From Sphingomonas sp. LaA6.9 (GTDB lineage Bacteria > Pseudomonadota > Alphaproteobacteria > Sphingomonadales > Sphingomonadaceae): a stretch of DNA of 42,044 nt. Of this stretch, positions 6,153 to 36,005 are shown in pieces. How positions within the stretch are numbered: position 1 is the first letter of the stretch; every line of letters starts with the position of its first letter. Position numbers and translations under genes: made by a program. Under the pieces are notes generated by a model. It was not told where the DNA came from. It ran no database searches and was given only the letters and a program-made list of their open reading frames with translations. The DNA is taken from contig NZ_JAKVIO010000036.1 in the NCBI RefSeq assembly GCF_022601895.1, positions 1 to 42,044 of the forward strand, in the 5' to 3' direction.

Positions 6153-6222
6153 CGGCCATATGCTCCGCTATCAACGACAGCGGCAAGATAGGTGCCCCCT
6201 CCGGCGCTTTCGACCCCGGAAC

Positions 6223-6253
6223 AAAAAAAAGGCCGATCCAAAAAGGACCGGCC
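6223..6253 (-). terminator. Intrinsic terminator, minus strand
   Basis: Read on the minus strand, the stem GGCCGGTCC/GGATCGGCC (one mismatch) has a TTTTT loop and is followed directly by TTTTTTTT. It lies 5' of the CDC48-like gene and not 3' of any annotated gene, so it must end an unannotated minus-strand transcript or act as a leader attenuator. Confidence 0.75.
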
Positions 6254-6342
6254 GTGAAAGTTTTTAGGAGAGGATGCCTGAAAGGCCTGCTCCATGTGCA
6301 GCGCAGCAAAGAATGTTGCAAGTGCGAAAAGGCTCTTTACGC
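6223..6342 (-). ncRNA. Candidate small RNA upstream of the CDC48-like gene
   Basis: On the minus strand a sigma-70-like promoter can be drawn: TTGTCC at 6378-6373, an 18-base spacer, and CATAAT at 6354-6349. A transcript starting near 6342 would run about 120 nt to an excellent intrinsic terminator, a 9-bp stem at 6231-6253 followed by eight T on that strand. Within it, a CCTCTCCT stretch is C/U-rich and complementary to ribosome-binding sites, a feature of several alphaproteobacterial regulatory RNAs. No open frame of note exists on this strand. An alternative is an attenuator in the leader of the CDC48-like gene, whose ATG is 70 bases further on. Inference from signals only. Confidence 0.45.
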
Positions 6343-32124: not shown

Positions 32125-32502
32125 ATGGCCCAAACGACTATCTTGGCCGCCATGGCAATCTTCCCCCGGCCCGTCTCTCCCCGGCGCGCACTCCGCGATC
32201 TGCGCGGATTCCTCGCGATGCGGCAGAAGCATGAGCTGATCTTCGGCTTCCTGTCGATCACGATCACCACGCTGCTGATGGCGGGCTTCTACGTCGATTC
32301 GCGCGTCGAAAAGCCGTGGAAGCGCGACATCCAGTATGTCGAGAGCTGGCCGCTCGACCGCAGCCTCGAACAGATTCGCGCGCAGCAGAAGATCGACGCG
32401 GAAAAGAAGAAGGTGCTCCAGGCCGAACTCGAAAAGAGGAAGCAGGAACGCATGGAGCAGTTCCGCAAGGTCGACCGGCAGCTGGACGCGCTCGGGCTTT
32501 GA
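32125..32502 (+). CDS. Small membrane protein with coiled coil, unknown function
   Basis: A 125-residue protein has one membrane segment (HELIFGFLSITITTLLMAGF) and a C-terminal coiled coil rich in Lys, Glu and Gln (about 75-120; IDAEKKKVLQAELEKRKQER). The orientation is probably N-in with the coiled coil outside, but this is uncertain. The start may be 32125 (GGTGGA upstream) or 32152. It overlaps ribD by 4 bases and follows tonB by 29 bases. I recognise no family. Confidence 0.65.
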   Translation: MAQTTILAAMAIFPRPVSPRRALRDLRGFLAMRQKHELIFGFLSITITTLLMAGFYVDSRVEKPWKRDIQYVESWPLDRSLEQIRAQQKIDAEKKKVLQAELEKRKQERMEQFRKVDRQLDALGL

Positions 32503-33500
32503 ACCGCGACGCGCGCTGGATGGCCGCGGCGCTCGCGCTGTCGGAACGCACGCGCGGGGCGACCGCACCCAATCCCAATGTCGGCTGTGTGATCGTCAGG
32601 GACGGCATCGTCGTCGGCCGTGGCTGGACCCAGCCGGGCGGGCGTCCACATGCCGAGGCAATGTCGCTGGAGCAGGCGGGTGACACAGCACGCGGCGCGA
32701 CCGCCTATGTGACGCTCGAGCCCTGCGCGCACCAAAGCCAGCGCGGCCCCGCCTGCGCCGACCTGCTTGTCGCAGCCGGCGTCGCGCGCGTCGTCATCGC
32801 GCTGGGCGATCCCGATCCGCGTACCGACGGACGCGGTATTGAGCGCCTGCGGGATGCGGGCATCGCGATATCCGAAGGTATCAGCGGTGACGCGGTGCGC
32901 CGCGCGATGGCGGGTTTCCTCACCCGTCGTGCGCATGGCCGCCCGCATGTGACGCTGAAGCTCGCCATGTCGCTCGACGGCTGCATCGCGCTCGTCAGCG
33001 GCGCAAGCCGCTGGATCACGGGCGATGCGGCGCGCGCACACACACATCTGGAGCGTTCGCGCCACGAGATGATCCTGGTGGGGCGCGGCACCTATGACGC
33101 CGACGCACCCCGGCTCGACGTACGCTTGCCCGGGCTTGAGCCGCGAAGCCCCCGACGCGCGCTGCTGACGCGTGGCGATCCCCCTTCGGGCTGGGAATCG
33201 GTGCGCGATCCGCGTGCGATCGGCGCGCTCGAGGATGTCGACCATCTGCTCGTCGAGGGCGGCGCTGCAACCGCGGCCTCCTTCCTTGCCGCCGATCTCG
33301 TCGACCGACTGCTGCTCTATCGCGCGCCGATCCTGATCGGGCACGGCAAGGCGGCGCTCGGCGATATCGGGCTCGAACGGCTCGACGACGCGCATGGCCG
33401 CTGGCGGCTTTCGGACACGCGGCCGCTTGGCAGCGACCGGCTCGAAGTCTACGAGCGCATGCGGGAGAACGAAGTATCGACCACAGGCCGCTCATCCTGA
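32499..33500 (+). CDS. ribD: Riboflavin deaminase/reductase
   Basis: This bifunctional enzyme carries out the second and third steps of riboflavin synthesis, deaminating and then reducing the pyrimidine intermediate. The protein has about 333 residues. The zinc deaminase half has APNPNVGCVIV, the catalytic GGRPHAEAMSL and PCAHQSQRGPAC (zinc ligands). The reductase half has RPHVTLKLAMSLDGCIA, SRWITGDAARAHTHLERS and DHLLVEGGAATAASFLAADL. The start is placed at TTG 32499 (overlap TTGA with the upstream gene); the next ATG at 32520 would cut into the first helix. The last two codons and the stop lie inside a palindromic repeat. Confidence 0.92.
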   Translation: MNRDARWMAAALALSERTRGATAPNPNVGCVIVRDGIVVGRGWTQPGGRPHAEAMSLEQAGDTARGATAYVTLEPCAHQSQRGPACADLLVAAGVARVVIALGDPDPRTDGRGIERLRDAGIAISEGISGDAVRRAMAGFLTRRAHGRPHVTLKLAMSLDGCIALVSGASRWITGDAARAHTHLERSRHEMILVGRGTYDADAPRLDVRLPGLEPRSPRRALLTRGDPPSGWESVRDPRAIGALEDVDHLLVEGGAATAASFLAADLVDRLLLYRAPILIGHGKAALGDIGLERLDDAHGRWRLSDTRPLGSDRLEVYERMRENEVSTTGRSS

Positions 33501-33620: not shown

Positions 33621-34235
33621 ATGTTCACGGGAATCATCACCGATATCGGCACGATCAAAAGCATCGAGCAGCGCGGTGACCTGCGCGCGGTGATCCAGAC
33701 CGCCTATGACACGGGCACCATCGATCTCGGCGCATCCATCGCATGTTCGGGCGTGTGCCTGACCGTCGTCGACAAGGGGCCGGGCTGGTTCGCGGTCGAC
33801 ATTTCGGGCGAGACCGTCTCGCGCACCGCCGGGGGCCAGTGGCACGAGGGCAATCGCCTCAACCTCGAACGCGCGCTCAAGGTCGGCGACGAGCTCGGCG
33901 GGCATATCGTCACCGGCCATGTCGACGGCGTTGGCCGGATCGTCGCGCTTGTCGACGAGGGCGATTCGCACCGCGTCACCATCGCCGCGCCGCGCGATCT
34001 CGCGCCCTATCTCGCGCCCAAGGGCTCGATCACGCTCGACGGCATCTCGCTCACCGTCAACAGCGTCACCGACACCGCCGATGGCGTCGAGTTCGGCGTC
34101 AACATCATCCCGCACACCGCCACGGTCACCACATTCGACGCGCTGGCGGTGGGCCGCGCGCTCAATATCGAGATCGACGTGCTCGCGCGCTATCTCGGTC
34201 GGATGCGCATGGCATTGGAAAACCATACAGGGTGA
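33621..34235 (+). CDS. ribE: Riboflavin synthase, alpha chain
   Basis: This enzyme dismutates two 6,7-dimethyl-8-ribityllumazine molecules to riboflavin, the last step. The protein has 204 residues in two similar barrel halves. The invariant start is MFTGIITDIG. The first half has IACSGVCLTVVD and the second KGSITLDGISLTVNSV. GHIVTGHVDGVG is the strand that enters the active site. I looked for an FMN riboswitch in front of it and of ribD and found none. The gene follows the palindromic repeat by 36 bases. Confidence 0.95.
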   Translation: MFTGIITDIGTIKSIEQRGDLRAVIQTAYDTGTIDLGASIACSGVCLTVVDKGPGWFAVDISGETVSRTAGGQWHEGNRLNLERALKVGDELGGHIVTGHVDGVGRIVALVDEGDSHRVTIAAPRDLAPYLAPKGSITLDGISLTVNSVTDTADGVEFGVNIIPHTATVTTFDALAVGRALNIEIDVLARYLGRMRMALENHTG

Positions 34236-34276
34236 TGTGATTTCTATTCTGGTATATCACACTGCAATGTGATAAT
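34236..34276. promoter_or_regulatory. Operator-like half-site array and extended -10 before ribBA
   Basis: Three half-sites occur: TGTGAT (34236-34241), ATCACA (34256-34261) and TGTGAT (34268-34273). The last two form an exact dyad ATCACA-CTGCAA-TGTGAT. The right arm is part of TGTGATAAT (34268-34276), a good extended -10 element. A transcript from it would begin almost at the ribBA start codon (34285), giving a leaderless or nearly leaderless message. The usual ribosome site is also badly placed (GGAG one base from ATG). Confidence 0.55.
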
Positions 34277-34284
34277 GCCGGAGC

Positions 34285-35574
34285 ATGAGCACGCAACTGA
34301 TCGAACGCGTCCGCGACCTTGTCGCCGATGGCGCCATCTCCCGCTCCGGCCTCGCACGCGCGGCCGGGCTTCATGCCAACTCGCTGCGCAGCCTTGAGGA
34401 GGCGGACTGGAACCCCACCGCCGACACGCTGAAGAAGCTCGAGAAATATCTGCTCCAGCGCGAAAAGACGCCCGCGCTCGTCCCGATCGAGGAGATCATC
34501 GACGAGGCGCGCAACGGCCGCATGTTCATCCTTGTCGACGACGAGGATCGCGAGAATGAGGGCGATCTCATCATCCCCGCGCAGATGGCGACTCCCGACG
34601 CGATCAACTTCATGGCCAAGCATGGCCGCGGGCTGATCTGCCTCACGCTCACCAAGGACCGCGTCGACCAGCTGGGCCTCGACCTGATGGCGCGCAACAA
34701 CGGCACGCGGCACGAGACCGCCTTCACCGTGTCGATCGAGGCGCGGGAAGGCGTCACCACGGGCATATCGGCCGCCGATCGCGCGCGCACGGTTGCGGTT
34801 GCGATCGACTCGACCAAAAGCGCGCAGCACATCGTCTCGCCGGGCCATGTCTTCCCGCTCGTCGCGCGCGACGGCGGCGTGCTCGTACGCGCCGGCCATA
34901 CCGAGGCCGCGGTCGACGTGTCGCGGCTTGCCGGGCTCAATCCTTCGGGCGTGATCTGCGAGATCATGAAGGACGACGGCACCATGGCGCGGATGGACGA
35001 TCTCGTCGAATTCGCGCAGGAACACGGCCTCAAGATCGGCACGATCCGCGACCTCATCGCCTATCGCCGCCAGCATGATCACCTTGTCGAGAAAAAGGCC
35101 GAGGCGAAGTTCACCAGCCGCTGGGGCGGCGAGTGGACCGCGATGACCTTTCACAACAAGGCCACGGGCACCGAGCAGGTGGCGCTGGTCAAGGGCCGCG
35201 TCGATCCCGACAAGCCCACGCTCGTCCGCATGCACGTTCTGTCGACCTTTGCCGACGTGTTCGGCGAGGAAGGCGATCGCGGCGTGATGCTGCGGCGGTC
35301 GATGGAAATTATCGGCGAGGAGGGCGCCGGCGTCGTCGTCGTCATCAACAAGCAGACCGATGCGCCCTTCACCAACGCGGTCCAGCGCAAGGCGGGGCTG
35401 CCCGCACCCGATATCGAGGAACTGCGCGATTACGGCGTGGGCGCGCAGATCCTCAACGAGCTCGGCGTGCAGGACATGGTGATCCTCACCAACACGCATC
35501 ACACGCTGGTGGGGCTCGACGGCTACGGGCTTTCCATTCTAGGGGAACGTCCCATCGATTGCGGAAAGGCCTGA
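34285..35574 (+). CDS. ribB: HTH-RibB-RibA-like fusion: 3,4-dihydroxy-2-butanone-4-phosphate synthase with degenerate GTP cyclohydrolase II domain
   Basis: The protein has 429 residues in three parts. Part 1 (1-60) is a helix-turn-helix of XRE type ([20 protein letters not shown], then [11 protein letters not shown]). Part 2 (about 65-270) is RibB, which makes the four-carbon unit of lumazine from ribulose 5-phosphate. Its active-site [27 protein letters not shown] and [14 protein letters not shown] are intact. Part 3 (about 275-429) has the fold of GTP cyclohydrolase II, but all three zinc cysteines are gone: the usual HSECLTGD...RCDCG reads HVLSTFAD...EGDRG. It should therefore be inactive as a cyclohydrolase, and a true RibA must exist elsewhere. 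The DNA-binding head suggests self-regulation. Confidence 0.9.
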
Positions 35575-35579
35575 ACGTC

Positions 35580-36005
35580 ATGGCAAAATTCCTGATCGTC
35601 GAAGCGCGCTTCTACGAGCATCTCAACGACATGCTGCTCGACGGCGCGCGCACCGCGCTCGAAGACGCAGGTCATGCCCATGAAACCGTGACGGTGCCCG
35701 GCGCACTCGAAATTCCCGCCGCAATCGCGCTTGCCGCCGAAAGCGGGCGCTATGACGGCTATGTCGCGATTGGCGTCGTCATCCGCGGCGAGACCTATCA
35801 TTTCGAGGTCGTCTCCAACGAAAGCGCGCGCGGGATCATGGCGCTCACGCTCGACGGCATCGCCATCGGCAACGGCATCCTGACCGTCGAGAACGAGGTG
35901 CAGGCGCTGACGCGCGCGAACCGCAAGGAAAAGGACAAGGGCGGCGAGGCGGCCAAGGCCGCGATCGCGATGCTCGAACTGCAGGGCCGCTTCGCCGCGA
36001 CCTGA
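35580..36005 (+). CDS. ribH: 6,7-dimethyl-8-ribityllumazine synthase
   Basis: Lumazine synthase condenses the RibB product with the RibD-derived pyrimidine. The protein has 141 residues. Recognised segments are [20 protein letters not shown] (aromatic stacking region), [39 protein letters not shown] (catalytic His) and [14 protein letters not shown]. The start at 35580 follows the ribBA stop by 5 bases, so the two are co-transcribed. This completes the ribD-ribE-ribBA-ribH cluster, lacking only GTP cyclohydrolase II and the pyrimidine phosphatase. Confidence 0.95.

Follow-up and report, generated by a model that had tools for sequence, protein, structure and literature searches.

The window, a stretch of 42,044 nucleotides from Sphingomonas sp. 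LaA6.9, contains riboflavin genes on its plus strand in the order ribD-like frame, ribE, ribBX and ribH. The ribD-like frame (32316..33500) has deaminase and RibD_C matches starting at residue 64, and its real start is probably inside the frame. It is followed by ribE (33621..34235), in which Pfam detects the lumazine-binding domains of riboflavin synthase and which adjoins the putative operators described below on their upstream side. At the other end, the lumazine synthase gene ribH (35580..36005, assigned by Pfam) begins 5 nt past the ribBX stop codon, and we infer that ribBX and ribH are co-transcribed. The open reading frame between ribE and ribH (34285-35574, plus strand) encodes a single chain of 429 residues, consisting of a likely XRE/Cro-like helix-turn-helix head (residues 1–62; 34285..34470), a RibB domain (residues 69–260; 34489..35064) and a RibA-like domain, RibX (residues 270–422; 35092..35550), that lacks the zinc cysteines and two further RibA segments. 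The head is described from Pfam, an alignment of heads, an AlphaFold2 model and Foldseek, the RibB domain from the Pfam DHBP_synthase match and motif conservation, and RibX from Pfam, NCBIfam and alignment. Judged by its sequence, the product is a RibBX protein with an extra N-terminal head.

The RibB domain matches DHBP_synthase (PF00926) with an E-value of 5.3e-85. Both the RxGHTEA motif and a second RibB motif of 11 letters, which we take to be catalytic, are invariant across 46 headed proteins. By these criteria the RibB part of the headed protein is intact, as the initial annotation had proposed for this dihydroxybutanone-phosphate synthase. Moreover, a PF00926 search of the whole genome returned one RibB, namely the product of the headed ribBX gene. 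RibB is a homodimer.

The third domain presents a different picture. Its Pfam match to GTP_cyclohydro2 (E 7.3e-34) would speak for a still active GTP cyclohydrolase II, yet the domain scores only 55.9 bits against the NCBIfam ribA cut-off of 205.85. In an alignment of 167 RibBX rows with the RibA of this genome, cysteine occupies the three zinc columns in 0%, 1% and 0% of the rows, which bears out the earlier observation that all three cysteines are replaced; the C-x10-C-x-C zinc site of GTP cyclohydrolase II is absent from RibX. In the same rows the RQEGRGIGL loop of RibA is unconserved and part of its YSLQDQGFDTVDAN stretch is missing; in such loops the alignment is uncertain. A complete RibA with the C-x10-C-x-C site (SECLTGDVLGSLKCDC), whose existence the initial annotation had proposed to check, was found elsewhere in the genome as a 369-aa open reading frame on contig C15. 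In addition, according to the excerpted text of PMC10012899, the RibBX proteins of Aeromonas salmonicida, Shewanella oneidensis and Bradyrhizobium have a RibA-like domain without the critical zinc residues and without GTP cyclohydrolase II activity; the same excerpts cite Brutinel 2013 and Nouwen 2021 for RibBX. RibBA proteins with degraded RibA domains are known in proteobacteria, as the initial annotation remarked. Taken at the level of sequence, the third domain is therefore no working RibA, and an enzymatically active one is hardly credible.

Other parts of RibX have been kept. RxH, D, GxGAQIL, LLTN and GYG are retained across the pooled headed, headless and outgroup rows, and the losses are the same in the pooled headed and headless RibBX rows. 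The idea that the dead RibA pocket senses GTP is unlikely on this sequence evidence, because segments of RibA beyond the cysteines have been lost as well; RibX is, in addition, common to headless relatives. Flavin or another pathway metabolite is a possible signal. A regulatory X domain is plausible by analogy, since in S. oneidensis the X domain reportedly regulates RibB in a way that is not understood (PMC10012899, excerpts), and it would not be specific to headed proteins.

The genome's RibA (L001:1429-2535, minus strand, contig C15 of G000) has a peculiarity of its own. About 180 N-terminal residues have no convincing Pfam match and are covered by NF006456 at a score under its cut-off. At a guess, this stretch may be a worn-out RibB, which would make the protein a mirror image of RibBX.

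Residues 18–56 of the head match HTH_3 with an E-value of 0.0044 when the whole protein is searched, below the Pfam cut-off. The first 64 residues alone, the check by HTH profile that had been suggested for the N-terminus, give an E-value of 2.5e-4 and 21.4 bits, and the Pfam cut-off of 23 is not reached. As the score stays under the curated cut-off, we call the head XRE-like and do not file it as a family member. Among 35 diverse heads, HTH_3 was matched at E ≤0.01 in 11. All 35 share A24, G28, L29, H30, N32, L34, R35, W42, N43, P44 and T48, eleven invariant columns that read A, GLHxNxLR, WNP and T. Codon positions 1, 2 and 3 differ between heads by 0.294, 0.217 and 0.557 per site. These codon-position differences, the invariant columns and the recurrence of the head in 115 loci identify it, at the sequence level, as genuine coding sequence, and its wide conservation speaks against translation starting further downstream.

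An AlphaFold2 model of the head based on 43 sequences (mean pLDDT 82) has helices at residues 2–15, 20–27, 35–38 and 46–61. In a Foldseek comparison with the PDB, we recognised 49 of the 50 best rows as XRE/Cro-C1-type regulators or antitoxins, including HipB, CapH, SinR, P22 c2 and C-proteins; for several of them the class is our own assignment. The remaining row was the N-terminal domain of MuB. Foldseek E-values were weak (best 0.049, none ≤0.001), with probabilities of 0.84–1.00, and a PDB search by sequence profile, built from the heads, returned no HTH protein, the sole match being an O-methyltransferase (E 0.081). The expected recognition helix is short in the head model, and the full-length model has no helix assigned there. 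For the XRE-type helix-turn-helix proposed for about residues 1–60, structure prediction thus gave XRE-type matches, but with weak E-values and without a full recognition helix. Overall, the modeled fold is likely to be XRE-like. The full-length model reaches a mean pLDDT of 73.7, with parts of RibB under 50; given this middling quality, no conclusion on domain packing was based on it.

How common is the head? Our survey of the family comprised 149 genomes, 146 with a match to the protein and 3 without. Two of them (G010 and G090) gave weak matches only and were left out of the family loci. Among the matches listed, second copies included, there are 150 family loci, of which 115 carry the head and 35 do not, so that a survey of sphingomonad RibB proteins does find the same head in relatives. 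Named carriers include records of Sphingomonas, Sphingobium (including SYK-6), Sphingopyxis, Sphingorhabdus, Novosphingobium and Erythrobacter. A separate search by pattern gave at least 594 matches, at least 575 of them encoding a relative; 80 were kept. Elsewhere in the order, the sampled genomes give matches that mostly start near residue 64, and the head was found in none of 20 further loci (18 from other families of the order and 2 from the same family), including one in G225 where the match starts at residue 21.

Searches for heads beyond the family covered samples of the class and the phylum. In the class sample of 289 genomes, E ≤1e-8 yielded the head in 3 genomes of the same family and 1 genome with a stand-alone XRE-like protein, and E ≤1e-5 raised the number to 5 of 289, the extra match being L303. 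The phylum sample of 299 genomes gave, at E ≤1e-5, 9 genomes of the same family and 4 weak matches in one other family (L299, L300, L301 and L302, in four genomes, E 4e-6 to 9e-6). Heads outside the family were therefore set aside as a candidate, these samples having produced mainly own-family genomes, one stand-alone XRE-like protein and a few weak matches. The stand-alone XRE-like protein of the class sample, of 72 aa and with the same WNPTAET motif, is encoded at L191:1453-1671 (minus strand) in a genome of another family. Upstream of its gene lies a perfect palindrome, TCGCACTGAAGTGCGA, with the same arm and gap design as at headed ribBX. This is a single case; the protein is perhaps a relative of the head's donor.

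A palindrome of this design also precedes the headed gene of the window. The main putative operator, O1 (34257..34272, no strand assigned; TCACACTGCAATGTGA), differs by 1 mismatch from TCACATTNNAATGTGA, ends 12 nt before the ribBX ATG and follows the consensus TCACATT-NN-AATGTGA. In headed loci the search covered the 150 nt preceding the head and its first 12 nt, with 14 positions scored. The 115 loci had 0, 1, 2, 3 and 4 mismatches in 33, 48, 22, 9 and 3 cases, respectively, so that, among the matches listed, 112 of 115 had the palindrome at ≤3 mismatches and all 115 at ≤4; these counts are descriptive, as the pattern was picked after reading headed upstream sequences. In contrast, none of the 35 headless loci, with about 260 nt searched in each, had a site at ≤3 mismatches, and one had a site at 4 (headed versus headless, Fisher P 4.5e-31, uncorrected for relatedness). 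About 1.3% of Markov shuffles of the headed regions reached ≤3 mismatches; in two control stretches of the headed loci, the counts were 0 of 113 and 0 of 115. The 80 loci fetched by the head alone (L192-L271) served as a follow-up set, drawn from the same family and including 6 repeats of the first set; all 80 had a site at ≤3 mismatches (0, 1, 2 and 3 mismatches in 20, 36, 23 and 1 loci). A search of the order added ten headed loci, three of them repeats, nine with ≤3 mismatches and one with 4. None of 21 further headless rows (18 from other families and 3 from the same family, one a repeat) had a site at ≤3 mismatches, and two had one with 4.

Within the 115 headed sites, ACA in the left arm and GT in the right arm are invariant, and TA mostly comes next after the site. 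The site starts 21–31 nt before the approximate start codon in 77 of the 115 loci and 36–96 nt before it in the other 38. It is present at ≤3 mismatches in 38 of 39 headed loci with ribE directly upstream and in 74 of 76 without, so its presence is independent of the neighboring genes. The headed gene is followed by ribH in 78 of 115 loci. Among the 35 headless genes, 25 are flanked by ribE and ribH and the other 10 by neither. Five genomes (G085, G122, G127, G133 and G181) have both kinds of gene, and there only the headed copy has a site at ≤3 mismatches.

A degenerate, putative second operator, O2 (34225..34240, no strand assigned), lies 32 bp upstream of O1. It has 5 mismatches, retains an intact right half, GATGTGA, and overlaps the ribE stop codon. 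A second site at ≤5 mismatches starting 16–50 bp from the first was present in 76 of 115 headed loci, compared with 14% in shuffles, and the spacing was 30–33 bp, or about three DNA turns, in 64 of the 76. Two sites on one face of the DNA suggest cooperative binding by two dimers.

Across the whole genome we counted 30 sites at ≤3 mismatches versus 2 for the reversed pattern, and the sole 1-mismatch site is the ribBX promoter. Of 12 headed and 4 headless genomes, 9 had a site at ≤1 mismatch, one apiece. Eight of the 12 headed genomes had such a site; in 7 it is located at the headed gene, and in G079 it lies about 950 bp past the end of that gene. In the headless genome G091 the site is far from the ribBX gene. 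The headed genomes G021, G031, G144 and G126 had no site at ≤1 mismatch.

From these sequence comparisons we consider it highly probable that HTH-RibBX is both the cell's only RibB and an autoregulator of transcription, most likely a repressor of ribBX(-ribH). The proposal in the initial annotation that the protein acts on its own gene thus gains strong support from a conserved predicted operator that accompanies the head. In the mechanism we propose, each half of TCACATT-NN-AATGTGA would be contacted by one of the two heads of an enzyme dimer, O2 could take up a second dimer on the same face of the DNA at a distance of about three helical turns, and the complex would block RNA polymerase. Surplus RibBX would then reduce transcription of ribBX and of the downstream ribH. 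Less certainly, DNA binding may depend on the ligand state of RibB or RibX (substrate, product or flavin), and the enzyme would therefore be its own flux sensor. Repression is the likely sign. It is argued from the position of the site, because the promoter hexamers could not be placed: a promoter scan near ribBX found none of the sigma-70-like type.

Several observations count against an autoregulator. The HTH_3 match is below cut-off, and the models show the recognition helix shortened or not at all; 4 of the 12 headed genomes examined have no site at ≤1 mismatch; of the sites at this threshold two are away from the gene, including the one in a headless genome; and headless relatives do without the head, the site and an FMN riboswitch. 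The head might also bind the operator as an activator, or as a ligand-free constitutive dampener, providing dose control while sensing nothing. We regard this as possible, though less likely than not, given that operator and head are tied and that RibX has suffered equal losses in headed and headless rows; because these losses are the same with and without the head, nothing ties RibX to a signal. An activator is disfavored by the 77 of 115 sites that begin 21–31 nt before the start codon, a position fitting repression, the other 38 being at 36–96 nt; a dose-only dampener would gain nothing by being the enzyme itself, which is an argument only.

Alternatively, another regulator could own the palindrome, with the head being a dimerisation or scaffold domain and the link arising through the headed genes' own promoter. 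The 25 of 35 headless genes that lie between ribE and ribH may indeed lack a promoter of their own, and the HTH match of the head is weak. However, 38 of 39 headed genes behind ribE also have the site, the modeled fold of the head looks XRE-like, and the best sites are mostly at ribBX, so the owner would have to be a one-gene regulator mirroring the presence of the head. We judge such an owner improbable. Since the palindrome sits in a short intergenic stretch, it could also be an RNA or terminator signal and not a protein site, an explanation to which we give next to no weight. A hairpin loop needs more than two bases, and the two-base gap is too short for one; moreover, no terminator-like site was found, and the palindrome has no Rfam match. 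An RNA switch at ribBX was rejected as well: the window has a single Rfam match, located far from the gene (6216-6293, minus strand), a suhB/mmgR sRNA at 53 bits, above the gathering score. With Infernal under stricter filters, no FMN riboswitch was detected in any of 99 family genomes, from headed and headless species, while 7 of 14 control genomes were positive.

The autoregulator favored here has partial counterparts. BirA, PutA and NadR are enzymes that repress genes of their own pathways through known ligand switches; the headed RibBX resembles them as a putative own-pathway repressor, but the enzymes are unrelated and the ligand switches are known there. RbkR is an archaeal riboflavin kinase with an HTH head that regulates riboflavin genes. 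Like RbkR, the headed RibBX is a flavin-pathway enzyme with its own HTH, whereas the enzyme, the head and the domain of life differ. BzdR has an XRE-type head. That DNA-binding head sits on a shikimate-kinase-like fold, and BzdR, thought to be a fusion of a DNA-binding domain with an enzyme, has lost the ancestral activity and controls benzoate-degradation genes (PMC3602430, excerpts). The present protein shares the arrangement of a DNA-binding head on an enzyme fold, but its RibB motifs are intact and it is the genome's only RibB. In Wolbachia, also an alphaproteobacterium, the transcription factors wBmxR1 and wBmxR2 bind the promoter of a bifunctional riboflavin gene and are reported to regulate a ribA reporter positively (PMC3518464, excerpts); unlike the headed RibBX, they are separate proteins, unfused to the enzyme.

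The closest known counterparts are the RibBX proteins of A. salmonicida, S. oneidensis and Bradyrhizobium, with which ours shares RibB fused to a zinc-less RibA-like domain, here alongside a separate complete RibA; in A. salmonicida, ribBX lies in the main operon with ribD, ribE and ribH, and ribA is elsewhere (PMC10012899, excerpts). The protein described here adds a head of about 62 residues and a predicted operator; the excerpts of PMC10012899 mention no DNA-binding head. No title or abstract opening in the open-licence PMC literature searched concerned a headed RibB or a sphingomonad riboflavin regulator, and a term search of the partial text of a 2025 review (PMC12542839) returned no "helix-turn-helix", "RibBX" or "sphingom". 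RibBX itself is known; what appears new, as read from sequence, is the DNA-binding head with a conserved putative operator, that is, a probable autoregulating enzyme built on RibBX. For a large bacterial family that lacks detectable FMN riboswitches, it offers a concrete, testable answer to how many of the members control riboflavin synthesis. It would also be a naturally occurring example of an enzyme whose sequence is intact and which has gained a DNA-binding domain to control its own expression. A new approach opens to RibBX, for whose X domain no mechanism is settled. Natural controls are available within the family, where headed and headless homologues occur side by side, sometimes in one genome.

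To follow the history of head and operator, we used a quick RibBX tree of 167 rows with a midpoint root; 112 of the 115 headed loci entered it, three being too short. On the tree as drawn, headless genes are nested among headed genes; 9 changes of the head are required, and 12 of the operator when it is cut at 3 mismatches. For counting contrasts, four long-branch headless rows were dropped, leaving 163 rows, 145 of them family rows. In five independent, well-supported contrasts the operator follows the head in 4.8–4.9 on average, and the opposite occurs in none; a sign test on these five gives P 0.06, which is the floor for five contrasts, so that 0.05 is unreachable. More tentatively, and with more doubt than confidence in the reading as a whole, head and operator may form a portable autorepressor module whose origin was a stand-alone XRE regulator and its operator design, and which was gained or lost several times as a unit, with the enzyme reading its own working state through ligand occupancy of RibB or of a rebuilt RibX pocket that would set tetramer bridging of O1 and O2. 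If this is true, sphingomonads, with no FMN riboswitch detected in the 99 family genomes, control vitamin B2 through an enzyme that monitors itself.

A wider regulon in the genome was considered and rejected, as no rib gene was among six open reading frames checked by Pfam at the next-best sites. In the 300 nt before ribA, the best palindrome match has 6 mismatches. The four next-best sites, each with 2 mismatches, are at loci with a DoxX gene, a DUF1552 gene, an S24-peptidase-like gene and a thiolase. The site upstream of the DoxX gene (L154 centre; G000 C32:38009-38024) is itself a perfect palindrome, TGACATTTAAATGTCA, and is perhaps the site of another regulator.
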